Below, piece after piece: positions 10,495 to 38,292 of a stretch of DNA of 64,000 bases. Source of the stretch: Ectobacillus funiculus (GTDB lineage: Bacteria; Bacillota; Bacilli; Bacillales; Bacillaceae_G). Numbering within the stretch: the stretch's first letter is position 1; every line of letters begins with the position of its first letter. The stretch covers positions 124,001 to 188,000 of the forward strand of contig NZ_SCFM01000012.1 of assembly GCF_004138295.1 (NCBI RefSeq), written 5' to 3'. The translations under genes were made by a program, and so were the position numbers. The notes under the pieces were generated by a model, which ran no database searches, was not told the origin of the DNA, and saw only the letters and a program-made list of their open reading frames with translations.

Positions 10495-11427
10495 TTGTCT
10501 AATCAAGTTATTCAAGTGAGCGCTGCAACAATCGAGCAAATGAAACAGCATTACGCAAGCATGCTAATTCCAAAGGTACCCCAAGGCGGCATCTTTTCCG
10601 CTAAAGCTCCTTCATGTAACATTACAGCCTATAAGTCTGGAAAGGTACTGTTCCAAGGAGCACGGGCCGAAGCAGAAGCAGCTCGTTGGCAAGAAAGCGC
10701 TAAATCTTCTGCATCATTGAAAACAAGTACGAATAAGCAAACGCCATACTCTCCTCCTTCCTCCATCAGCACCATGTCTATTATCGGCTCAGACGAGGTC
10801 GGCACCGGGGACTATTTCGGACCGGTTACAGTCGTAGCTGCTTACGTCTCTAAAGAACAAATTCCTCTTCTCAAGGAATTAGGCGTAAGGGACTCGAAGG
10901 ATTTAACAGATGACCAAATCACAAAAATTGCAAAGGATTTGCTCTCGATCCTCACATACAGCTCGCTCGTCTTACATAATGAAAAATATAACGAGCTACA
11001 GCAGCGTGGAATGAACCAAGGTGAAATCAAAGCATGGCTTCATAACCAGGCAATCGGTAAAGTATTAGAAAAACTGAAGCCAACGAAACCGGAAGGCATC
11101 CTAATAGATCAGTTTGTCCAGCCTGCTACATATTATAAGTATTTAGCTAAACAAAAAACGGTTCACCGTGAAAATGTGTATTTTTCCACAAAGGGCGAGA
11201 GCGTGCATCTTGCAGTTGCGGCAGCTTCCATGCTCGCACGCTATAGCTTCGTAAAGCAATTTAATGAGCTTAGTAAAAAAGCGGGCTTTACCTTGCCAAA
11301 AGGGGCGGGAGCACAGGTGGATGCGGCGGCGGCAAAATTGATACGCACACATGGAAAAGAAAAATTGAAGGAATTTGCGAAGCTGCATTTTGCGAATACG
11401 GAAAAGGCATTAGGATTACTGAAGTAG
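10495..11427 (+). CDS. rnhC: Ribonuclease HIII
   Basis: A 310-residue type 2 RNase H. The N-terminal TBP-like substrate-binding domain (about 1-85) is followed by the catalytic domain opening with IIGSDEVGTGDYFGPVTVVAAYV, the DEVG signature of RNase HIII. The acidic residues of RDSKDL, LIDQF and VAAASMLARY follow. It degrades RNA in RNA-DNA hybrids. The TTG start is supported by AAAGGAGAG 6 nt upstream. It is divergent from zapA, the conserved arrangement. Confidence 0.94.
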   Translation: MSNQVIQVSAATIEQMKQHYASMLIPKVPQGGIFSAKAPSCNITAYKSGKVLFQGARAEAEAARWQESAKSSASLKTSTNKQTPYSPPSSISTMSIIGSDEVGTGDYFGPVTVVAAYVSKEQIPLLKELGVRDSKDLTDDQITKIAKDLLSILTYSSLVLHNEKYNELQQRGMNQGEIKAWLHNQAIGKVLEKLKPTKPEGILIDQFVQPATYYKYLAKQKTVHRENVYFSTKGESVHLAVAAASMLARYSFVKQFNELSKKAGFTLPKGAGAQVDAAAAKLIRTHGKEKLKEFAKLHFANTEKALGLLK

Positions 11428-11428
11428 G

Positions 11429-11566
11429 ATAAAGAAAACTCGCCGATTGGCGAGCCCTGCTCTTGGGAGAAGACAGGGGCGTAGCCCTACTTATACTGTA
11501 TCCCTAAAATTTCTCGCTACGTCGAGCTTGCTTCCAACTAGAAATTTATACTTTCTTAAAGTGCAA
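11429..11566 (+). repeat. Dispersed intergenic repeat, copy 3
   Basis: A full-length copy that starts 2 nt after the rnhC stop, with intact CTCGCC/GGCGAG hairpin and GAAATTTATACTTT right arm. It ends at the U-tract of the terminator of the convergent glycosidase gene. Confidence 0.85.
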
Positions 11567-11572
11567 CAAAAA

Positions 11573-11605
11573 AATTGTTCTAGTGCCATAAACACTAGAA
11601 CAATT
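11573..11605 (-). terminator. Terminator of the GH4 glycosidase (bidirectional)
   Basis: A perfect 13-bp stem (AATTGTTCTAGTG / CACTAGAACAATT) with a 7-nt loop, followed on the leftward strand by TTTTTTGTTG. Confidence 0.85.
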
Positions 11606-13236: not shown

Positions 13237-13374
13237 TTAAAGAAAACTCGCCGATTGGCGAGCCCTGCCCTTGGGCGAAGACAGAGGCGTAGCTGCACTT
13301 ATACTGTATTCCTAAAATTTCCGACTACGTGGAATTTGCTTCCAACTGGAAATTTATACTTTCCTACAGTGAAA
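13237..13374 (+). repeat. Dispersed intergenic repeat, copy 4
   Basis: A full-length copy with an intact 5' hairpin, GGGCGAAGACAGAGGCG core and GGAAATTTATACTTTCC right arm. It sits only 34 bp before the rightward regulator start codon and, unlike most copies, does not abut a leftward terminator. Confidence 0.85.
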
Positions 13375-13408
13375 AATATACTTTTTATAGAAGGAGAACT
13401 CTGCACAA

Positions 13409-14286: not shown

Positions 14287-14943
14287 TTATAATGTTTGGA
14301 AGGAAACTAACCCATACTGCTTTGCCTTCATCAACGCTTCCGTTCTAGAACGGGCCCCGAGCTGTCCAAACAGCTTTGTTAACGCATATTCTACTGCCCG
14401 TTGGCTCATGTATAAAGCTTCGGAAATTTCGCGGTTTGTCAATCCTTCTGCAATCAGCTTTAAAAGATTCTGTTCCTTCTCAGTTAGCTGAATCGATTCT
14501 TTCTCTCCTGCTCCCTTCATATGAGAGCCTTCTACTTTTTTTGTTAGCTGCCGCAATATGCTGACCGGAAGTATCGACAATCCTCTTGCAGCCGCTGTAA
14601 TACTCATCATAATATCTTCAGTGGAAGACGCCTTGCTGATAAAACCATATACTCCCGCTTCGATTAAAAGATTCATATGAGATGCCAAATCAAAGCCTGT
14701 CCAAACGACAATTTTGCTCTCTGGCTTTTCATGCAAAATGCTTTGCGCAAGCTCCATTCCATTTAGTTCCGGCATATGTAAATCAAGTAAAATTACATCG
14801 AAATCTGCTGCTTTCACCAGCTTCATCGTCTCTAAGGCAGAAGAAAGCACCGTTACTATCATGTCCGCTTTATGCTCTAGCACCGCTTTCATCCCCTGGC
14901 TTACCGCAACGTGGTCATCAACAATCAAAACTCGGATTGCCAT
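14287..14943 (-). CDS. comA: ComA-type response regulator (NarL/LuxR family)
   Basis: A 218-residue protein. The receiver domain (about 1-120) starts IRVLIVDDHVAVSQG, with the phospho-acceptor Asp in VILLDLHMPELNG near residue 53. The C-terminal LuxR-type HTH (about 150-215) reads LTNREISEALYMSQRAVEYALTKLFGQLGARSRTEAL, which parallels the B. subtilis ComA helix (LSKRSIEYSLTSIFNKLNVGSRTEAV). The ATG has GGAGG 9-10 nt upstream and overlaps the end of comP by 26 bp. It is the last gene of a comQXPA-type operon. ComA-box-like sites upstream of the operon suggest positive autoregulation. A generic NarL regulator is the alternative, but the gene set argues for ComA. Confidence 0.88.
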   Translation of the reverse strand: MAIRVLIVDDHVAVSQGMKAVLEHKADMIVTVLSSALETMKLVKAADFDVILLDLHMPELNGMELAQSILHEKPESKIVVWTGFDLASHMNLLIEAGVYGFISKASSTEDIMMSITAAARGLSILPVSILRQLTKKVEGSHMKGAGEKESIQLTEKEQNLLKLIAEGLTNREISEALYMSQRAVEYALTKLFGQLGARSRTEALMKAKQYGLVSFQTL

Positions 14944-17221
14944 AATTGTTTTCCTCCGTGTTCTCTTTTTTTGGCAACGGAAGTTCTATTCGAATGAGCA
15001 TTCCCTCATTTGGCGCAGATGAAATAGAAAGCTCCCCGTTCATTGCTTGGGTTCGCTCCTTTATTCCCACCAAGCCAAAATGCTGCTTTGGTTTGGTATT
15101 TGCAAGACAACTCATCTCCATGCCCACGCCATCATCCTCATAAACAAGCAATAATCGGTTTTCCTTCTTGTACAGGGAAATAAAGATGCAATTTGCCTCA
15201 GCATGCTTTCTTGCATTGTGAAGCAATTCCTGCATAATTCGATATAAATGTACGGTGTACCATTCACCAAGTCGTTCGGCTGTATCTAGATTGGAAGCAA
15301 ACTCAATCAAAACTTGCTCTTTCATCCTATGATTTTCTATTAATGTCTGCAGTCCATCAACAATCCCCATTTGCAACAAAAATGGCGGCCGTAGCCGATA
15401 GCATTCCTCACGAATATACTGAATTTGTTGAATTAGCTGGTCTCTTGCAGCATCTATAGCCATTCCTTGCCCAAGCTCCTGATAGATGAGGATCAGCTCC
15501 TGCAGCAGCGTATCATGAATATCTCGCGACAGACTTTCCTTCTCTTGTTCAGAAACCATAAATAACAGCTTTGACAACAGCAGGGAGGAAGCCCCCTGTT
15601 CATCACGTGTACGTTCAAACTCCCGTAATATCTCCTGCACATGAACAAAGCTTTGTAATAAAACATTCGTATGCAGTGCAATAGTATGTAGCCAGACAAG
15701 GTCATCGTGATTAAAACGAACCCGATCTTTTTTATAGCTGATGAACATACAAGTATATATCTCTGGAGTTTCACCTACCAATAGAAAATACCCGCTTTTT
15801 CCACGCATCACCGTCCCTATGACCATTTCTTCACGAATTAGGGTTTCCCGCAAAGAAACTAAATCGATTTCACAATCGTCCTCTGATAGACAAAAACGTT
15901 GCCCAGTCTTTAAAAATTCCAGCTTAAAAACCCGCTTCACAAACAATACCTTTTTCATCTCGTTTATTAAGTTATCTATTATGCTATTCGCGCTTGTACT
16001 GCTCATCCCGGCTTTAGAAAATCGTAATAAGCTAGCTTCATATCTTGCTTTATTAAACACTAGCCTGCTTTCAATCCCTACATCAGCCTCCTCCTTTATA
16101 AATAAAAGAGACGCCATAATCGCCCAGCATAAAAGATAGATTCTCAAGTAAGACAGCCATTCAAAAGAGGCTGGATGCAGAACATAAAACCCTAATATAA
16201 GTGCTAAAGCGGGAAAACATGAGAGAAGCGCATAATAGAACATTCTTTTTAGCATATAATCTATATCATGCAGTTCCTTGTTCATGACAATATATAAGGC
16301 TGCAAACGGCAAAAACGCTAAAAAGCAGGCTGTATATTCAGCAGAAACAATTACAATTCCTGTCAAAACTTTAGGAAGTGCATAAAATAAACAAAATGGA
16401 AGAAACGCAAAAAGGATTGTATAAAAAACCAGTTTTAACTTAGCAGGATTGAGCACATGTTTATAGCCTCGGCAATTCTTGTAAATAAGAGCGGCCACGG
16501 CTGCACTCATAAGTAAAAATAGGAATAGGTATATTTCCTCTGAAATATGAAAGGAACAAACAAGGATATAGCTAATGGTTGAAAGCAACACAGCACATAT
16601 ATATAAGGTATAGAGAACTATTCTAGAAAATAGCGTAATAGAATGCTCACGGTATATCTGATACATAAAATGACTCACTACAACAGGGCACATTATTAGA
16701 GATAGACCCATTACATACACACCGATTCGATCAAACCGAGCGGAAACCTCGCTGCTGACATAACACATGCTTACAATTAAAAGAAAGACAGAAAGAAGGA
16801 GAACACTTTCTGTCTCTTTAAATCTTCGATAGACATACAAAACAATAGCTAAAGTAAGCACGAACAATACAAGCGGAAAAAAGGTATAAAACAAGTATGA
16901 AATAGGGGCTCGTTCATAATTGATAAAAAAGGAGCTGTATATTCCTTTTCTTTCTATAAGTAAAGCACGTATTTTCTCTACCCTGCCATGTGTGCGTATC
17001 GTATCTACACGATCGTCCGAAATCACAATATGATCCCCTGCTCGAATGCCGTGTATGTAAGCCCAGCCGTTCGGATACACATCTGTCACGGTATAATGGT
17101 GTTCCTTTATTTGCTGCGCCTTCATTCCCATTAAAGGATAGGTGCTAATAACATACGTAAAATAAGTGGCAATACATGCAATCAAAGCGATGAAGATCAT
17201 ATACAACGTTGGCTTCTTCAT
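14918..17221 (-). CDS. comP: ComP-type quorum-sensing histidine kinase
   Basis: A 767-residue sensor kinase, the length of B. subtilis ComP (769 aa). After a first membrane segment comes a PDZ-like extracytoplasmic part (NGWAYIHGIRAGDHIVI). About seven more membrane helices follow (residues 100-375), then a cytoplasmic sensor segment with VRFNHDDLVWLHTIALHTNVLLQSFVHVQEIL, strongly like ComP. The HisKA_3 histidine is in SLSRDIHDTLLQEL near residue 570; the HATPase has ELLHNARKHA and YEDDGVGM. I choose ATG 17219-17221 for length and the MKKP start; a TTG at 17275 would overlap comX. It has no clear ribosome binding site and is probably coupled to comX translation. Confidence 0.88.
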   Translation of the reverse strand: MKKPTLYMIFIALIACIATYFTYVISTYPLMGMKAQQIKEHHYTVTDVYPNGWAYIHGIRAGDHIVISDDRVDTIRTHGRVEKIRALLIERKGIYSSFFINYERAPISYLFYTFFPLVLFVLTLAIVLYVYRRFKETESVLLLSVFLLIVSMCYVSSEVSARFDRIGVYVMGLSLIMCPVVVSHFMYQIYREHSITLFSRIVLYTLYICAVLLSTISYILVCSFHISEEIYLFLFLLMSAAVAALIYKNCRGYKHVLNPAKLKLVFYTILFAFLPFCLFYALPKVLTGIVIVSAEYTACFLAFLPFAALYIVMNKELHDIDYMLKRMFYYALLSCFPALALILGFYVLHPASFEWLSYLRIYLLCWAIMASLLFIKEEADVGIESRLVFNKARYEASLLRFSKAGMSSTSANSIIDNLINEMKKVLFVKRVFKLEFLKTGQRFCLSEDDCEIDLVSLRETLIREEMVIGTVMRGKSGYFLLVGETPEIYTCMFISYKKDRVRFNHDDLVWLHTIALHTNVLLQSFVHVQEILREFERTRDEQGASSLLLSKLLFMVSEQEKESLSRDIHDTLLQELILIYQELGQGMAIDAARDQLIQQIQYIREECYRLRPPFLLQMGIVDGLQTLIENHRMKEQVLIEFASNLDTAERLGEWYTVHLYRIMQELLHNARKHAEANCIFISLYKKENRLLLVYEDDGVGMEMSCLANTKPKQHFGLVGIKERTQAMNGELSISSAPNEGMLIRIELPLPKKENTEENNYGNPSFDC

Positions 17222-17237
17222 AGATTCTAAAAAAGGA

Positions 17238-17393
17238 TTAAGCCCAATAATATAGTTTCTCTTGGTTTCCTTCAAAGGATTTCAAAATAGCTCTTTGTTC
17301 TTCTACCGATACACCTAGCAAGTTAGACTGACCATTTTTCACACTTTCCAAAGCTTCTAGATTTTCCGTTAAATATAAAACCATTTCTTGCAT
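17238..17393 (-). CDS. comX: ComX-type pheromone precursor (51 aa)
   Basis: ATG 17391-17393 to TAA 17238-17240 encodes 51 residues, starting MQEMVLYLTENLEALESVKN and ending NQEKLYYWA. Known ComX precursors are 50-75 aa, begin similarly (MQDLINYFLNYPEAL in B. subtilis 168) and carry a single tryptophan near the C-terminus that ComQ isoprenylates. Here the only Trp is residue 50, penultimate. GGGGAG lies 10 nt upstream. The gene fits exactly between comQ (18-nt gap) and comP (16-nt gap). ComX sequences diverge widely, so position, size and Trp carry more weight than similarity. The mature peptide boundary cannot be predicted. Confidence 0.82.
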   Translation of the reverse strand: MQEMVLYLTENLEALESVKNGQSNLLGVSVEEQRAILKSFEGNQEKLYYWA

Positions 17394-17411
17394 AATTTGC
17401 ACACTCCCCAT

Positions 17412-18299
17412 TTATAATTTTTGCAAAAAGATCTCTTTTAAAGCCTGTTTGCTTTTCCTATTAACCTGCAAACTATCAATTGCAGCGATAGCTTGATTCT
17501 GATGGAGCTCTCTTACAGCGTTGGCATATACAAGTGCTCCCGAGGATTTCACAATATGTACAAGTTCCTCTTCCCTCTCTGCCAATTCCTCAAAGGAAAT
17601 AGTCCCTGCAAAATAATCACGAACAAGCTGGCCTTTTTCTACCTTTGGATGCAGTAAATATAAAATAGGCAATGTTCGTTTTTTCTTTCTCCAATCACTT
17701 TTCCCTGTTATATTAACGGCATCTCTCATATCATTGGCGATTTGTGCCGCTACTCCCATATCGCTCGCATATGAAGCAATGCAAGCGGGCACATTATCCG
17801 TTGCAAGCAAGCTGCCAAGTAAGCTGGCTAACGTAAGCAGGGAACCGGACTTCTTACGGCACATGATGATATATTGTTCTTCATTGCTAATTGCATTTTC
17901 GATATCTAAGTATTGTCCTTCTATAGAGATGTTAAGGCATTGATGCATGCAGCGTGCAGCTGCATTCTGATTTTGGAAGGATGAGGCTATAATGTGATTC
18001 ATAGAGGAATTCAAGAATAATAAAGCGATATTCAAGGCTTGTGCCTTCTCGATTTTCATCCAAGGAGCTGCTTCGGCAAGATCTTCATCCTGCCAATCAT
18101 CTATAATATCAAGCGATAAAATAAGCTGTTCTACCGCATCAGCAATTTGCTGGATATCGGGAGATGTTCCTCCAAAGACCTTGTAATGCTGCAAGGTTAT
18201 TAACCGAAATGGCGAGCCTTGCTTCTTCTTATAAGCAAAACAATCTGCATACAGCTGCTGGAGCTGCTTTTCTTGAATAAGATGCTCTGTAGTAATCAT
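17412..18299 (-). CDS. comQ: ComQ-type isoprenyl transferase
   Basis: A 295-residue all-helical prenyl-synthase-fold protein. The first Asp-rich motif is LSLDIIDDWQDEDL near residue 89. The second is in GVAAQIANDMRD near residue 187. RKKKRTLPILYLL follows, as in ComQ proteins. ComQ modifies the tryptophan of pre-ComX with a geranyl or farnesyl group and is needed for pheromone export and maturation. The comX-like frame directly downstream and comP and comA after it make ComQ far more likely than a housekeeping polyprenyl synthase. GGGGG lies 13-14 nt upstream of the ATG, a rather long spacing. Confidence 0.87.
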   Translation of the reverse strand: MITTEHLIQEKQLQQLYADCFAYKKKQGSPFRLITLQHYKVFGGTSPDIQQIADAVEQLILSLDIIDDWQDEDLAEAAPWMKIEKAQALNIALLFLNSSMNHIIASSFQNQNAAARCMHQCLNISIEGQYLDIENAISNEEQYIIMCRKKSGSLLTLASLLGSLLATDNVPACIASYASDMGVAAQIANDMRDAVNITGKSDWRKKKRTLPILYLLHPKVEKGQLVRDYFAGTISFEELAEREEELVHIVKSSGALVYANAVRELHQNQAIAAIDSLQVNRKSKQALKEIFLQKL

Positions 18300-18385
18300 G
18301 TTTTTCTACATTCCCCCTTTCTAAAACATTATCCAAAACAAAATTACCATTTATAAGGGTTTTTTATAAATTTTTGATAAATTTT

Positions 18386-18883
18386 TTATAAATTTATCAC
18401 TAAAGCAGTTATTTTTCCTAGTGCTTCTTGAGCTGCCATTATTTCTATTGTACTGTTTGAATGAGCACCTACGCTCTCCAGCAACTCCAGCGCATCGTAG
18501 GTCAGGCAAGAAGGATTAATCAATGAAATGGACCAAGCTGCCCAAAAACGACCGCTTTTATTTTCTGAAGCCAGCTCTTTCATTAGGTATGGTACACTCT
18601 TCCCTCCAATCCTTACTAATGCTAAAGCACTTGCCATTCTTGTTTGCTCCTTTGTATGAAGCAGTAATGGAGTAATTACAGGTATGGCATCTGAAAATTC
18701 CTCACCTAGCTGCTCCATCATCCTTACCGCCAGCATTTTTATAGCATCATGCTCGTCTTGCAAGGCATCTACGATAAATTGAATGACTTGTTCCTTTTGC
18801 AAGCTTTGAATCACCTTCCATGTCTCCGGAATGCTGGAACTTTCGAATTGTAGCATTTGAAGATCCACCGGAGCCTTGCTCAT
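18386..18883 (-). CDS. HEAT-repeat protein at the head of the com locus
   Basis: A 165-residue helical-repeat protein. Three HEAT-like units are visible: VIQFIVDALQDEHDAIKMLAVRMMEQLGEE, AIPVITPLLLHTKEQTRMASALALVRIGG and SVPYLMKELASENKSGRFWAAWSISLI. Such repeats usually bind proteins; no catalytic motif is present. It lies 86 bp upstream of comQ on the same strand and directly downstream of ComA-box-like sites, so it is probably the first cistron of the quorum-sensing operon. In B. subtilis this position holds degQ, which is unrelated. Its role in signalling is unknown; an accessory or immunity-like function is a guess. GAGGTG lies 9 nt before the ATG. Confidence 0.72.
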   Translation of the reverse strand: MSKAPVDLQMLQFESSSIPETWKVIQSLQKEQVIQFIVDALQDEHDAIKMLAVRMMEQLGEEFSDAIPVITPLLLHTKEQTRMASALALVRIGGKSVPYLMKELASENKSGRFWAAWSISLINPSCLTYDALELLESVGAHSNSTIEIMAAQEALGKITALVINL

Positions 18884-18991
18884 TCACAGATTCACCTCAC
18901 TTCGTTTAGTTTGTTCATTGCATACTTGGGCAGGAATTAAAAGCTCTCCAAGGAAATCATGAGCAGCGGAAGAACTTTCACTTGGATTACC

Positions 18992-19012
18992 TTTATATTA
19001 ACAGAACTACGC
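18992..19012 (-). promoter_or_regulatory. Promoter region of the HEAT-comQXPA unit
   Basis: The leftward strand has an AT-rich -10 candidate, TAATAT or TATAAA, within 18992-19000. No good -35 hexamer lies at the correct distance, and the nearest ComA box occupies that place. This is the arrangement expected of an activator-dependent promoter such as that of srfA. About 110 bp separates it from the first start codon. Confidence 0.5.
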
Positions 19013-19071
19013 TTGCGGGTTTCCGCAAACCTCTCTTCGGAAAACCGCAATTTTTTTGTAGGTTTCCGAAA
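19013..19071. promoter_or_regulatory. Three ComA-box-like sites
   Basis: Site 1 (19013-19028) is TTGCGG-GTTT-CCGCAA, a perfect match to the B. subtilis ComA box TTGCGG-N4-CCGCAA. Site 2 (19035-19050) is CTTCGG-AAAA-CCGCAA, 10 of 12 fixed positions. Site 3 (19056-19071) is TTGTAG-GTTT-CCGAAA, 9 of 12. Site starts are 22 and 21 bp apart, two helical turns, so bound dimers would line up on one face. They lie upstream of the leftward HEAT-comQXPA unit and could also influence the rightward SDR gene. Confidence 0.82.
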
Positions 19072-19087
19072 TCAGACTGCCATAAAA

Positions 19088-19198
19088 GGCGGGCCTTAGG
19101 AGAGGGCAGAGGCGTAGCCCTACTTATGCTGTATCCCTAAAATTTCTCACTACGTCGAACTGTCTTCCAGTTAGAAATTTATCCTTTTTTACATTGGA
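19088..19198 (+). repeat. Dispersed intergenic repeat, copy 5 (5' hairpin degraded)
   Basis: The core (AGAGGGCAGAGGCGTAG) and right half (CTACGTCGAA, TTAGAAATTTAT) are recognisable, but the CTCGCC hairpin is reduced to GGCGGGCC. It lies between the ComA boxes and the SDR promoter and does not abut a terminator. Confidence 0.7.
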
Positions 19199-19337
19199 AC
19201 AAAGCATGTATTGTATGGTATCCTTCCTCCTAAATAATCATAATATTTTGAATACAACCGCTTTTCAGATGGTATATAATAGCAGTAATCATCATAGGAA
19301 GGTCATGTATGCTTTTTTTAATGAAAGGAGACGATGT

Positions 19338-20036
19338 ATGGAACATGTAAAGGGAAAGGTCGTCATCATTTCTGGAGCTGGGAGCGGTTTAGGGAAGGAA
19401 ACAGCACTCGCCTTCGCAAAAGCTGGGGCGAATCTTGTGATTTGCGGTCGTAATTATGCTAAGCTCGAACAGGTGGAGGACTTAATTACAAGTCAGTATA
19501 ATGTTACAGTGCTGCCAATCCGCGCAGATGTATCATCTGAGTCTGATGTAAAAATGCTTGTGCAGGCTGCATTGGCTAAGTTTCAAAAAATTAATGTGTT
19601 AATTAATAACGCAGCCGTTTTCCAGCAATATCCTCTTATTGATAGTCCGCTAGATTCATGGGAGTACCAAATCCATAATAATGCTACGAGTGTGTTTTTA
19701 ATGATGCGGGAATGCATTCCGATTATGCGAAATCAAAAATCCGGTCATATTATTAATATTACGTCCGGGTTGGTCCGCGAAGGTGCAGCGGGCTTTGGCG
19801 CATATGCTGCGAGTAAAGCGGCAATTGAAGCATTAACGTATTCTGTTCAGGATGAAGAGCATAAAAATGGGATTCATGTGCATGTCTTTAACCCAGGTGT
19901 AATGAAAACAAATTTAGCTAATATAGGTGATGATCCTGCCAATGTTGCACCGTACGTTGTTGCATTAGCGGAGGTCCATTCTACTGGTGAAAGGCGCGTT
20001 ATTCAATTAGAAGATTTTCAACTAGCAAGAGATTAA
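19338..20036 (+). CDS. Short-chain dehydrogenase/reductase
   Basis: A 232-residue classical SDR. It has the cofactor loop ISGAGSGLGKETALAFAKAG (residue 10 on), NNAAV near 87, and the catalytic YAASKAAIEAL near 155 preceded by the serine in INITSG. The arginine in CGRNYAKLEQ, after the second strand, suggests NADP preference. I choose ATG 19338-19340 because AAAGGAG lies 8-9 nt upstream; longer in-frame extensions lack a ribosome binding site. A TATAAT at 19275-19280 is a possible -10 box with a weak -35. The substrate is unknown. It stands alone between the com locus and pheT. Confidence 0.85.
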   Translation: MEHVKGKVVIISGAGSGLGKETALAFAKAGANLVICGRNYAKLEQVEDLITSQYNVTVLPIRADVSSESDVKMLVQAALAKFQKINVLINNAAVFQQYPLIDSPLDSWEYQIHNNATSVFLMMRECIPIMRNQKSGHIINITSGLVREGAAGFGAYAASKAAIEALTYSVQDEEHKNGIHVHVFNPGVMKTNLANIGDDPANVAPYVVALAEVHSTGERRVIQLEDFQLARD

Positions 20037-20048
20037 TGCATTTTCTTA

Positions 20049-20180
20049 TAAAGAAAACTCGCCGACTGGCGAGCCCTGCTCTTGGGTGAAGACAGAGGCG
20101 GAGTTGCCCTTACACTGTATTCCTAAAATTCCCCACTACGTCGAATGAACTTCCAGCTGGGAATTTATACTTTCCTACAG
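20049..20180 (+). repeat. Dispersed intergenic repeat, copy 6 (tandem with copy 7)
   Basis: A full copy with hairpin CTCGCC-GACT-GGCGAG. It ends TTTCCTACAGTG directly joined to the next copy, giving a unit length of about 133 bp. Confidence 0.85.
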
Positions 20181-20319
20181 TGTAAAGAAAACTCGCCGAC
20201 TGGCGAGCCCTGTCCTTGGGCGAAGACAGAGGCGGAGTTGCACTTATACTTTCTTCCTAAAATTGCTCGCTACGTCGAATTCACTTCTAACTGGAAATTT
20301 ATCTTTTCTTAAAGTATAA
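20181..20319 (+). repeat. Dispersed intergenic repeat, copy 7
   Basis: A full copy directly following copy 6, with the same GACT loop variant. Its right edge meets the pheT terminator U-tract. Confidence 0.85.
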
Positions 20320-20324
20320 AACAC

Positions 20325-20350
20325 AAGGACAATGCCTCTGCATTGTCCCT
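20325..20350 (-). terminator. Terminator of pheT
   Basis: GGACAATGC pairs with GCATTGTCC over a 4-nt loop, with TTGTGTTTTAT following on the leftward strand. Confidence 0.7.
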
Positions 20351-20366
20351 GCTCATTTATTACATA

Positions 20367-22787
20367 TTACTTCCGAAGCTCCGCCCCGAATGTTTCCTCC
20401 ACAGCCTGCAACACACGGCTATGTGCTTCTGTTACTTCTTCGTCCGTTAGCGTACGCTCTGGATTGTAGTAACGAAGTGAGAATGCTAACGATTTTTTGC
20501 CTGCTTCCATTTTTTCACCTTGATATAGGTCAAATAAAGCAACTTCTTTTAACAATTCGCCGCCAGCTTCCACAATCGTGCGATGTACATCCCCAGCAAG
20601 AACGTCTGCTTTAACAACAAGCGCCATGTCACGTGTCATAGATGGGAAACGAGGAATGCTTTCATAGCTCACCTCGGCAACATCCGCACCAAACAATGCG
20701 GCAAGAGACAATTCAAAAACATATGTTTCCTTCACGTCTAATTGCTTTTGCATTTCTGGATGCACTTGACCGATATAGCCAATTTCCTCGCCATCTAACA
20801 AGATGCTTGCTGTACGTCCTGGGTGCAGATCAGCACGTTTAGCCGCAGCATATGAAATCTTTTCTGTTACACCAAGCACATCAAATAAGCCTTCGAGCAC
20901 ACCTTTCACAACATAAAAATCAACTGCTTTTTTCTCGCCCTGCCACGGGTGATTCAGCACAAGTCCAGTCATGACACCGGCAAGATGCTGCTCTTCTTTT
21001 GGCTGCTCGTCTTGTCCCGCCGGCAAGAAAACAGAGCCGATTTCATACAGTGCCACGTTTTCAATTTTACGTGCATTGTTATAAGAAGCTGCCTCTAACA
21101 AATGCGGCACCAAACTTAAACGAAGCTGGCTGCGCTCTTCGCTCATCGGAAGCGCAAGACGAATCGGCTCAAGAGCTGTTTCCTTTAATGCATATTGCTT
21201 CGCCTTTTCCGCGCTTGTTAAGGAATACGTAATTGCTTCGTATAATCCTGCTCCCTCTAAATAACGGCGTGTTTTACGACGCTTTGCCTGCTTTTCGGAT
21301 AGCTTGCCGCGTGTTGTTTCCGCCACTGGAAGCGTAGCTGGAATATGGTCATAACCATATAAACGGCCTACTTCTTCTACTAGGTCCTCTTCGATTGTAA
21401 TATCAGGTCTTCTTGTTGGCACTTCTACTTGGAATGTTCCGTTCTCTTGTGAAAATGGGAATTTTAAGTTTGTGAAAATCGCTGCTACCTCTTCAGCTGT
21501 AATGGCAGTTCCTAGCACACTGTTAATTTTCTCAACAGAGACAGAAACCGTATTTTGCTCGAGCTTCAGGTTATTCACCTCGACAGCACCTTCTAACACT
21601 TCGCCGCCTGCGTATTGTGCCATTAACGCTGCCGCACGCTGCGCTGCTTCGAATGTACGCTGCGGGTCAATGCCCTTTTCATAGCGTGCGCTTGCTTCAC
21701 TGCGAAGACCTAAGTCTTTGGACGCTTTACGAATTGCAGAGCCTGTGAAGTAAGCAGATTCAATTAACACGTTAACTGTGTTTTCATCTACCTCTGAATT
21801 TGCACCGCCCATTACACCAGCAATCGCAACACCTTTTGATCCGTTTGTGATTAACAAATGATCATTTTTCAATGTACGCTCTGTGCCATCAAGTGTTTCC
21901 ACCTTCTCGCCTTCCTCTGCAAGACGAACAACGATTTCCTTGGAGCCAAGCTTATCATAATCGAATGCATGAAGCGGCTGACCGTATTCCATCAGAATAT
22001 AGTTCGTAATATCTACTACATTGTTAAGAGGACGAACACCAGCTGCCATGAGGCGTGTTTGCATCCAAATAGGAGATGGGCCAATTTTTACGTTTTTCAC
22101 CACTTTTGCAATATACAGCGGGTTTTGCTCCGGTGCATCTACACGAATGGAAATATAGTCAGATGCTTTTTCATTTGTTTCTTGCAGTTCAATACTTGGC
22201 ATTTTCACTTCCTTGCCAAGAATCGCTGCTACCTCATATGCTACACCAAGCATGTTCAAGCAGTCAGCACGGTTTGGCGTTAAGCCAAGCTCTAGCACTT
22301 GGTCATCCAAGTTCAGTTGCTCAATCGCATCCGCTCCAACCTCTGCGTCCGCAGGAAATACGAAAATACCCTCTGAATATTCCTTCGGGACAAGCTTTCC
22401 TTCAATGCCAAGCTCTTGCAGGGAACAAATCATCCCGTGTGATGCTTCACCGCGAAGCTTCGCCTTTTTGATTTTAAGACCGCCCGGTAAACGCGCACCA
22501 ACCTTTGCGACTGCTACCTTTTGTCCTTGTGCTACATTTTTCGCGCCGCAAATAATTTGCACTGGCTCGTCTTCCCCAACATCTACAAGGCATTTGCTTA
22601 ATTTATCTGCTTCCGGATGCTTTTCGCGCTCCATCACATAGCCGACAACGACATTTGTTGCCCCTTGATTTAAAAGCTCTACGCCTTCTACTTCAATGCC
22701 GGCCTTTGTAATTTTATCAGCTAATTGCTCAGCCGTTAGACCATCAATATCTACATATTGCTGTAACCATTTATAAGATACGAACAT
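20367..22787 (-). CDS. pheT: Phenylalanine-tRNA ligase beta subunit
   Basis: An 806-residue PheT. The domain order is the tRNA-binding OB fold near 40-155 ([24 protein letters not shown]), B3/B4 editing domain near 210-400, B5 domain, core ([18 protein letters not shown]) and C-terminal ferredoxin-fold anticodon-binding domain ([29 protein letters not shown]). It forms the (alpha-beta)2 synthetase with PheS. GGGGAGGG lies 7 nt before the ATG and the gene starts 17 bp after pheS. Expression is under the T-box leader upstream of pheS. Confidence 0.97.
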
Positions 22788-22804
22788 GTTTATGCCCTCC
22801 CCTT

Positions 22805-23839
22805 TTACGCTCGTTTAAATTGCTGTAAGAATCGTACATCGTTTGTATAGAAATGGCGGATGTCATCTACGCCATATTTCAACATTGCAATACGCTCAGG
22901 TCCCATACCGAAAGCAAAGCCCTGATATTCCTTCGGGTCGTAGCCAGCCATGCGAAGCACATTTGGATGAACCATACCCGCACCCAAAATTTCAATCCAG
23001 CCTGTTCCTTTACAAGTTCCGCAGCCCTTACCACCGCACATCATACAGGAAATATCCATCTCAACAGATGGCTCTGTGAACGGGAAGAAGCTTGGGCGCA
23101 GACGGATTTCGCGCTCTTCACCAAATAATTTCTTCGCAAATGCTTGCAGCGTGCCTTTTAAATCGCTCATGCGAATATTTTTATCGATTACAAGACCCTC
23201 AATTTGCATGAACTGATGGGAGTGTGTCGCATCGTCATCATCACGTCGGTATACTTTACCTGGGCAAATGATTTTGATTGGACCTTTTTCTTCATTTTTC
23301 TCCATTGTTCTTGCCTGCACCGGAGATGTATGCGTACGAAGAAGAATTTCATCTGTAATATAGAAAGAATCCTGCATATCACGAGCTGGGTGGCCCTTTG
23401 GCAAGTTCAATGCTTCAAAGTTGTAGTAATCGCGCTCCACTTCTGGGCCTTCTGCAATTTCGTAGCCCATACCAATAAATAAGTCTTCAATTTCTTCGAT
23501 AACAGCTGTAAGCGGATGGTGAGAGCCAACACTCACAGGACGACCTGGCAATGTTACATCAATTGTTTCAGATTCTAATTGCTTCGCGATTGCCGCCTGC
23601 TCAAGCTGCGCCACTTTTTCATCTAGACGAGTTTGGATCGCTTCGCGCACATCATTCACAAGTGCTCCCATACGAGGACGCTCCTCTGCGGACAATTTGC
23701 CCATACCGCGCAAAACCTCCGTAATCGGTCCTTTCTTTCCTAAATACGCCACGCGCACATCATTTAACTCTTTCAGTTCAGATGCCGCTTCAATTTTCTC
23801 AAGCGCTTCTTGCTGCAGCTCTTTCAAACGTGCTTCCAT
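22805..23839 (-). CDS. pheS: Phenylalanine-tRNA ligase alpha subunit
   Basis: A 344-residue PheS. The N-terminal coiled coil (about 1-85) precedes the class II catalytic core with [28 protein letters not shown], the motif 2 region [24 protein letters not shown] and the motif 3 segment [21 protein letters not shown]. It charges tRNA-Phe with phenylalanine. AGGAGG precedes the ATG by 8 nt. A T-box riboswitch with a Phe specifier lies 50-290 bp upstream. Confidence 0.97.
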
Positions 23840-23886: not shown

Positions 23887-24125
23887 AAAAAAGCCTCATC
23901 CCTATGAAGGGACGAGACTTAGTCTCGCGGTACCACCCTAATTGGCAGAAATATATCTGCCCGCTTCATTTCGGTAACGGCATTATGCCGGAACGCCTTT
24001 ACATGATATCCATGGTCCCAGCGCCAACTCCAGAGGTGAATTCACAAATCCCTACCATAAAAATGCTTCCAGTCTTAGGCATTTTCTCCCTGTATGGCGC
24101 TCTATTTGCTACTCTTCTCTATCAT
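23887..24125 (-). promoter_or_regulatory. T-box riboswitch, tRNA-Phe, controlling pheST
   Basis: The 14-nt T-box AGGGTGGTACCGCG lies at 23926-23939 (complement). The competing terminator (GTCTCGTCCC stem followed by TTTTTTTATTT) is at 23887-23920. Stem I contains a probable specifier UUC before ACCUCUGG, the same position at which the thrS leader has ACC before ACCUCUGA. Uncharged tRNA-Phe would stabilise the antiterminator and allow pheST transcription. Confidence 0.92.
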
Positions 24126-24194
24126 CATTTTTTGTGATATGTATTTTTAGCTTTATAACAATTTATTCAAGACTTAATTATAAGTGTCTTTTTT

Positions 24195-35477: not shown

Positions 35478-35693
35478 AGTAAGCCACCTCCAAGGTTTTA
35501 TGAGAATACTTCTGCGGCAGAATGTTTGCGCCCAATAAAAAAGTGCGGGCATATACAATACACCCACACTGTAACTGTTTATATCCGTTACATACAACAT
35601 ATGTTGTAACCTGTTAACTGCCTTCTAGCGTCAATCAGGTGAGAAGCGGGTGCTCCTGCTTGTTCACAAATTAAGTATTCTTTTTCCTCAGAA
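35478..35693 (-). promoter_or_regulatory. L20 leader of infC-rpmI-rplT
   Basis: The transcript between promoter and infC contains AGCACCCGCTTCTCACCTG and TTGACGC near its 5' part, as in the L20 leader family. A downstream attenuator hairpin lies at 35536-35571. In B. subtilis L20 binds this leader and stabilises the terminator. Confidence 0.78.
35536..35571 (-). terminator. Attenuator in the L20 leader
   Basis: CAGTGTGGG pairs with CCCGCACT with one mismatch across a TATTGTATAT loop, followed by TTTTTTATT on the leftward strand, about 60 nt before the infC start. Confidence 0.8.
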
Positions 35694-37996: not shown

Positions 37997-38205
37997 AAAA
38001 ACACCCGTCCCCAAAAAGGGACGAGTGTTGATTTCTCGTGGTTCCACCCTTGTTCCGATTCACATCTATGAATCGCTCAAGTATTATAACGGTGTTTACC
38101 GTCAGCAATTACTATCAATTCATCGCTGAAGTTCAGAGGTGGTAAACAACTTTTTCGTATTAGGAAGCTCACAGCCTAAGGCCTCCCTCTCTGAGAATCG
38201 TAAAA
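37997..38205 (-). promoter_or_regulatory. T-box riboswitch, tRNA-Thr, controlling thrS
   Basis: The T-box AGGGTGGAACCACG lies at 38037-38050 (complement). The terminator (AACACTCGTCCC / GGGGACGGGTGTT then TTTTATTTTT) is at 37997-38029. The probable specifier ACC precedes ACCUCUGAAC in stem I. Confidence 0.92.
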
Positions 38206-38292
38206 AGAAATTCATGTCCTCATCATTACTTATGTTATATTCACATTATGTACGTAATTATATTCGCAACGCAAAAGAAAAGCAAGGGAGCA

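Follow-up and report, generated by a model that had tools for sequence, protein, structure and literature searches.

ComA-dependent promoters of Bacillus subtilis are, in the accessible text of Wolf et al. (PMC4797271), built around a core module in which an inverted repeat is followed by a half-site (RE3), often with a further half-site (RE4) after 5 nt, and which adjoins a poor -35 and an extended -10. In synthetic promoters described there, output fell more than 10-fold when the promoter-proximal position was occupied by a perfect inverted repeat. As to control of the signalling genes themselves, the available part of a comQXPA census gives one common promoter in front of comQ and putative ones in front of comX and comA, and cites negative feedback through ComQ (PMC4008528), and B. 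subtilis ComQXPA is reported, in the portion of Dogsa et al. at hand (PMC7794433), to operate without signal-dependent positive feedback. The agr and comCDE peptide systems are named as positive-feedback systems in the accessible part of PMC8895600. ComA sites ahead of comQ are mentioned in none of the available portions of PMC4008528, PMC8895600, PMC12935306, PMC8055654 and PMC5385187, and our search of the open-licence literature, represented mostly by titles, returned no description of them.

Here we describe a comQXPA locus in a 64,000-nt stretch of Ectobacillus funiculus DNA (hereafter the window), which resembles that of B. subtilis in the gene order comQ-comX-comP-comA and in its protein families. 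The putative transcript runs leftward and begins with a gene for a 165-aa HEAT-repeat protein (18386-18883, minus strand; PF13646, 48.4 bits against a cut-off of 27.7). It is followed on the same strand by comQ, encoding an isoprenyl transferase (17412-18299; PF00348, polyprenyl synthetase), comX, encoding a 57-aa pheromone precursor (17238-17411; PF05952, 44.6 bits against a cut-off of 25), comP, encoding a sensor kinase (14918-17275; HATPase_c at 47.6 bits, HisKA_3 at 20.7 bits, below its cut-off of 24), and comA, encoding a response regulator (14287-14943; Response_reg and GerE), so that both the gene order and the ComX domain of a ComQXPA locus are present. The best PDB matches of the ComA DNA-binding domain are B. 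subtilis ComA (2krf/3ulq); its recognition helix SQRAVEYALTKLF aligns with SKRSIEYSLTSIF of B. subtilis and keeps the R-x-x-E-Y pattern. An AT-rich gap of 86 bp separates the HEAT gene from comQ, and no terminator-like site was called within it; we infer co-transcription across this gap, and a second promoter may lie in it or inside the operon. BLAST found no HEAT gene ahead of comQ at any of 52 other ComX loci, some of which had no DNA upstream of comQ, and the only HEAT match among them was a distant one in L068, far from comQ, on the strength of which HEAT was rejected as a general comQXPA partner.

Between the HEAT gene and a divergent, rightward gene for an SDR oxidoreductase (19338-20036, plus strand) lies an array of three inverted repeats. 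Direct reading and a pattern search place box 1 at 19013-19028 (TTGCGGGTTTCCGCAA; TTGCGG-N4-CCGCAA, no mismatches), box 2 at 19035-19050 (CTTCGGAAAACCGCAA, minus strand TTGCGGTTTTCCGAAG; 2 mismatches, 10/12) and box 3, a weak inverted repeat, at 19056-19071 (TTGTAGGTTTCCGAAA, minus strand TTTCGGAAACCTACAA; 3 mismatches, 9/12), all assigned to the minus strand and with starts 22 and 21 bp apart. Read on that strand the order is TTTCGG-N4-CTACAA, N5, TTGCGG-N4-CCGAAG, N6, TTGCGG-N4-CCGCAA, then GCGTAGTTCTGT and TAATAT. The first-pass annotation had reported a perfect box with two weaker copies at 21-22-bp steps and, leftward, an AT-rich -10 without a proper -35, and both descriptions held (TAATAT or TATAAA; -35 match 2/6).

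Taken singly, boxes at up to 3 mismatches are no commoner in the window than chance predicts (20 observed, 25.1 expected), so one weak box by itself carries little meaning. The array was therefore judged as a set against 20,000 dinucleotide shuffles of the intergenic region (18884-19337, both strands), with scored spacings that had been picked after the data were viewed. A perfect box was reached in none of the shuffles, the triple-box score of 31/36 was never equalled (best shuffle, 24), and the score of inverted repeat plus half-site, 16/18, was matched once. The perfect box and the phased set are thus above chance expectation. That they are nevertheless a product of chance or of structural repeats, either terminator hairpins or a dispersed 138-145-nt repeat, is barely credible: short hairpins are possible by eye at boxes 1 and 2, but no terminator-like site was called at the boxes, and similar modules precede the com operon in the families f17 and f40 described below. 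The outer half of box 3 does overlap the ungapped register (19063-19207) of a degenerate copy of the dispersed repeat, but boxes 1 and 2 lie outside it. Box 3 is the least secure part of the array.

The dispersed repeat itself is found in the window at 11430-11574, 13238-13382, 19063-19207 (degenerate, 66%), 20049-20193 and 20183-20327, the similarity of the copy next to the boxes being convincing by eye only from about 19088. It has at least 73 matches genome-wide, with head-to-tail arrays at steps of about 132-134 nt, and matched no Rfam family at or above cut-off at these positions.

Since single weak boxes occur at chance level and box 3 is the weakest, we dropped the reading of three equal boxes for one of an inverted repeat plus a half-site: box 2 and the left half of box 1 appear to form a ComA core module better than three equal boxes would. 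In this register box 2 is the inverted repeat (10/12), and 6 nt further the first half of box 1 on the minus strand (19023-19028, TTGCGG, 6/6) takes the place of the promoter-proximal half-site RE3, which is followed after 22 nt by the candidate -10 TAATAT with a TGT extension (18995-19000, minus strand; 4/6). The inner half of box 3, CTACAA, falls at the position of an upstream half-site (RE0), 5 nt ahead of box 2. A rival -10, TATAAA (18992-18997, minus strand), lies 25 nt past RE3 and beats TAATAT by match count (5/6). The -35 is poor, the hexamer 17 nt upstream of TAATAT matching TTGACA at 2/6 positions. A consensus promoter scan of 17400-19400 did not call the proposed com promoter; its sole match was leftward and outside the array (19268-19240; 1 found, 4.9 expected).

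With rapA, rapF, srfAA and pel of B. subtilis, as far as these are covered by the accessible text of Wolf et al. (PMC4797271), the array shares the canonical inverted repeat (TTGCGG-N4-CCGCAA) and, after it, a TTGCGG half-site adjoining a poor -35, although the extended -10 described there has only a candidate counterpart in the window. Unlike the B. subtilis core promoters, the array has no RE4 direct repeat 5 nt after RE3 (the position reads CGCAAG, 1/6), its half-site opens a second, perfect inverted repeat, and its target is the regulator's own operon. The RE4 position also reaches only 1-2/6 in the eight f17 and f40 modules. As RE4 is degenerate in several B. subtilis targets according to the available portion of PMC4797271, we regard it as typical, not required.

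From this architecture we think it likely that 18995-19071 is a leftward, ComA-activated promoter of HEAT-comQXPA, which would place the system under positive feedback; the arrangement of the elements is also what suggests ComA binding, the transcription start, and the direction and sign of regulation. Starting from a presumed basal expression, ComX would be modified by ComQ, build up outside the cell and be sensed by ComP, leading to phosphorylation of ComA. ComA dimers would then occupy box 2 and box 1, perhaps also box 3, from the same side of the helix and recruit RNA polymerase to the promoter with its poor -35, so that transcription of HEAT, comQ, comX, comP and comA rises and both signal and receptor are amplified. 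The agr and comCDE systems work in a similar way, the signal operon being transcribed more strongly under its own response regulator. Their regulator families and signal chemistry are unrelated to those of ComQXPA.

Several com loci allowed this architecture to be compared. A search for ComX was positive in 52 of 397 genomes of the order, the window's own among them, and another 52 loci were retrieved; searching with PF05952 around f17 and f40 turned up no additional com loci. The module was sought in the 400 nt upstream of each com operon, with 500 shuffles for each, so that p could not fall below 0.002. The test covered 48 of the 53 loci, L070, L090, L098, L100 and L103 being without a usable comQ start or upstream DNA; at L105, where the ComX match fell short of the cut-off and had the opposite orientation to the com genes, comQ was tested in its own orientation. 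Nine of the 48 loci reached p=0.002, namely the window, five of six f17 loci and three of four f40 loci, and the other 39 had no module, among them L081 (p=0.026) with a 6/12 repeat.

The f17 loci with modules are L065 (Schinkia azotoformans), L069, L073, L074 (Calidifontibacillus oryziterrae) and L078 (C. erzurumensis). Four of them carry CCGMAA, N5, the inverted repeat, N5, TTTCGG or TTACGG, N22 and TACAAT or TATAAT about 85 nt ahead of comQ, and in L078 the module lies at -275 with a poor -10. These Schinkia and Calidifontibacillus modules are thus like the window in having an inverted repeat, a half-site, N22 and a -10 before the com operon; they differ from it in their N5 spacing, in standing directly before comQ and in that no HEAT gene was found with them. 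The f40 modules show no -10 at N22 and have a likely one at N38 past the half-site, a spacing picked by eye. An upstream half-site (at least 4/6 to CCGCAA at N5) accompanies seven of the eight f17 and f40 modules as well as that of the window; the background rate is 2.3% per position. In a tree of ComA, ComQ and ComP (46 rows; L075 and loci lacking ComA or ComQ left out), three f40 loci, each with a module, form the sister group of the window with support 1.0, and the window's ComQ is 37-39% identical to three f40 counterparts. Two other loci come from Bacillus thermotolerans (L082) and Bacillaceae bacterium SAS-127 (L084). One f17 genome, G078, has a second, divergent comQXPA locus without a module (L085, contig C43).

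The B. subtilis-type loci, a group (f43) assigned from ComA identity, are arranged differently. All 13 have a two-mismatch box 386-458 nt ahead of comQ, no HEAT match was found at any of them, and within the 400 nt tested none showed a module at p<0.05 (lowest, 0.056). At the four f43 loci displayed, TTTCGG comes 16 or 17 nt after the box and a -10-like hexamer another 22 nt on, the distance from half-site to -10 equalling that of the four f17 loci whose -10 is good. In L096 a short DegQ-like ORF and a terminator-like hairpin lie between box and comQ. The gene degQ is activated by ComA. This spacing bears on a reading of opposite sign, in which ComA on the perfect box, covering the -35, would block RNA polymerase and damp com expression. 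Box 1 does overlap the -35 position of the proposed promoter, and a perfect inverted repeat so placed performed poorly in the B. subtilis synthetic promoters; yet there is no good -35 to block (2/6), and half-site and TAATAT are spaced as in the f17 modules and at the box ahead of the degQ-like ORF. Such negative autoregulation is, to our mind, improbable but deserves some weight. For ComA activation of HEAT-comQXPA, as the first-pass annotation had proposed, the orientation, the register and the modules at related loci all speak; what did not survive of that proposal is the trio of equal boxes, replaced by inverted repeat plus half-site.

A scan for further ComA boxes, suggested by the first-pass annotation as a way to the regulon, showed the perfect box to be unique in the 5,446,075-bp genome, where it is intergenic and belongs to the proposed com promoter; the seven other boxes, with one mismatch each, all lie within ORFs. 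Among 19 genomes of the family there are two perfect boxes, the second being inside an ORF in G002. Boxes with up to 2 mismatches number 147 genome-wide against 103 for the reversed pattern, a mild excess; part of the 147 were listed, and genomic context was examined for the perfect and one-mismatch ones. At up to 3 mismatches, the module with N5 between inverted repeat and RE3 has 10 matches (0 reversed), 2 of them from the com locus, and that with N6 has 5 (0 reversed), 3 of them from the com locus, including the two best. The best N5 match elsewhere (L108, 2 mismatches) is within a long ORF, as are L112, L113, L114 and L116; L115 and L117 are in ORFs of only 98 and 95 aa, which may not be genes, and L111 (3 mismatches) lies between ORFs. 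The two N6 matches beyond the com locus coincide with the one-mismatch boxes of L002 and L005. Modules with N16 spacing gave 4 matches against 3 in the reversed control, the best two in ORFs. Among the best-matching sites inspected, the array is the only strong intergenic one, an indication that the com operon ranks among the main targets of ComA in this genome. The sites might be real and serve another regulator of the NarL/LuxR type, as genomes of this kind have several such response regulators; but the motif is the one published as the ComA consensus of B. subtilis, it adjoins the comA operon, and the local DNA-binding domain is nearest to ComA in the PDB, and we hold this reading to be highly improbable. 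A first contig scan with a single ComQ query returned no relatives, and comQ is absent from the other 18 genomes of the family, so that no close relative is able to show conservation of the array.

The rightward SDR gene had also been put forward as a target of the boxes. The perfect box is symmetric, and on the plus strand CTTCGG comes 6 nt after it, but that strand has no good -10 at ComA spacing. The SDR gene probably has its own promoter, TATATAAT at 19273-19280, some 200 bp away from the boxes; this element and its flanking bases recur upstream of the SDR ortholog of G002 (84% identical), near which there is no box with up to 3 mismatches. In G002 none of the listed ORFs around the ortholog is a com gene, and its genome gave no ComQ match. 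These features make the SDR gene an unlikely target, and action of the boxes on it, alone or in addition to the com operon, is in our estimate very improbable; here the earlier suggestion was abandoned.

For a wider sample, named genomes were scanned and 50 relatives of ComQ obtained, of which 47 were tested (L200, L201 and L202, with partial ComQ matches, were left out). Eight of the 47 loci repeat earlier ones and were counted once (L155=L078, L160=L065, L163=L073, L165=L082, L168=L074, L169=L084, L182=L056, L193=L057). Two of four Desulfosporosinus loci, L159 (UBA4726; p=0.007) and L176 (D. fructosivorans; p=0.017; 300 shuffles), have a half-site, N5, TTGCGGTATCTTGCAG, N6, TTTCGG or TTTCTG, N22 and TAAAGT, 180 and 203 nt ahead of comQ; the other two, L156 and L164, have no module upstream of comQ. 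These arrays are weaker evidence than the f17 and f40 modules, because the repeat is only 9/12, many loci were tested, the best -10 by count is at N17 (4.5) and not N22 (4.0), and the register of L176 was chosen by eye to match L159, the automated pick being a different register of equal total score. Chance alone should yield a few p-values near 0.01 among 47 loci tested. L166 (Paenibacillus curdlanolyticus), the only Paenibacillus locus at p<0.03 (p=0.010), was not counted as a module, its repeat being only 7/12.

Taken together with the f17 and f40 modules, these loci allow a tentative scenario, which we consider possible though rather doubtful. ComA self-activation would be old and widespread in comQXPA (several Bacilli families and Desulfosporosinus) and would have disappeared from the B. 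subtilis group once degQ, bringing its terminator, had inserted between module and comQ; the HEAT gene would be a parallel capture, in which feedback was kept because no terminator came with it. If so, B. subtilis, the best-studied member, would be the exceptional case, its feedback having been lost. Should relatives drive their com promoter through ComA, the same components would occur both as a looped and as an unlooped circuit, and a single promoter swap could show how feedback affects threshold sharpness, heterogeneity and cost.

Other features were noted along the way. A perfect 6-4-6 inverted repeat before comQ, considered as a feature common to the families lacking the box, was set aside, such repeats being seen only within f43. 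In f36 (L056-L062, L071) and f35 (L076, L080), CCTACCTATTC or a similar stretch followed by a GGTAGGC-like one recurs before comQ in several loci, and the loci with it have no ComA module. In the window, the com block and the SDR gene are flanked on one side by genes resembling PheT/PheS (20367-23839) and on the other by one resembling RNase HIII (10495-11427), named by eye. Upstream of comQ in three loci of another family (L063, L064 and L072) there is an ORF of 804-831 aa, which may mark the same chromosomal site. In the window, two T-box leaders (23905-24134 and 38014-38235) and an L20 leader (35531-35667) are present, all on the minus strand.
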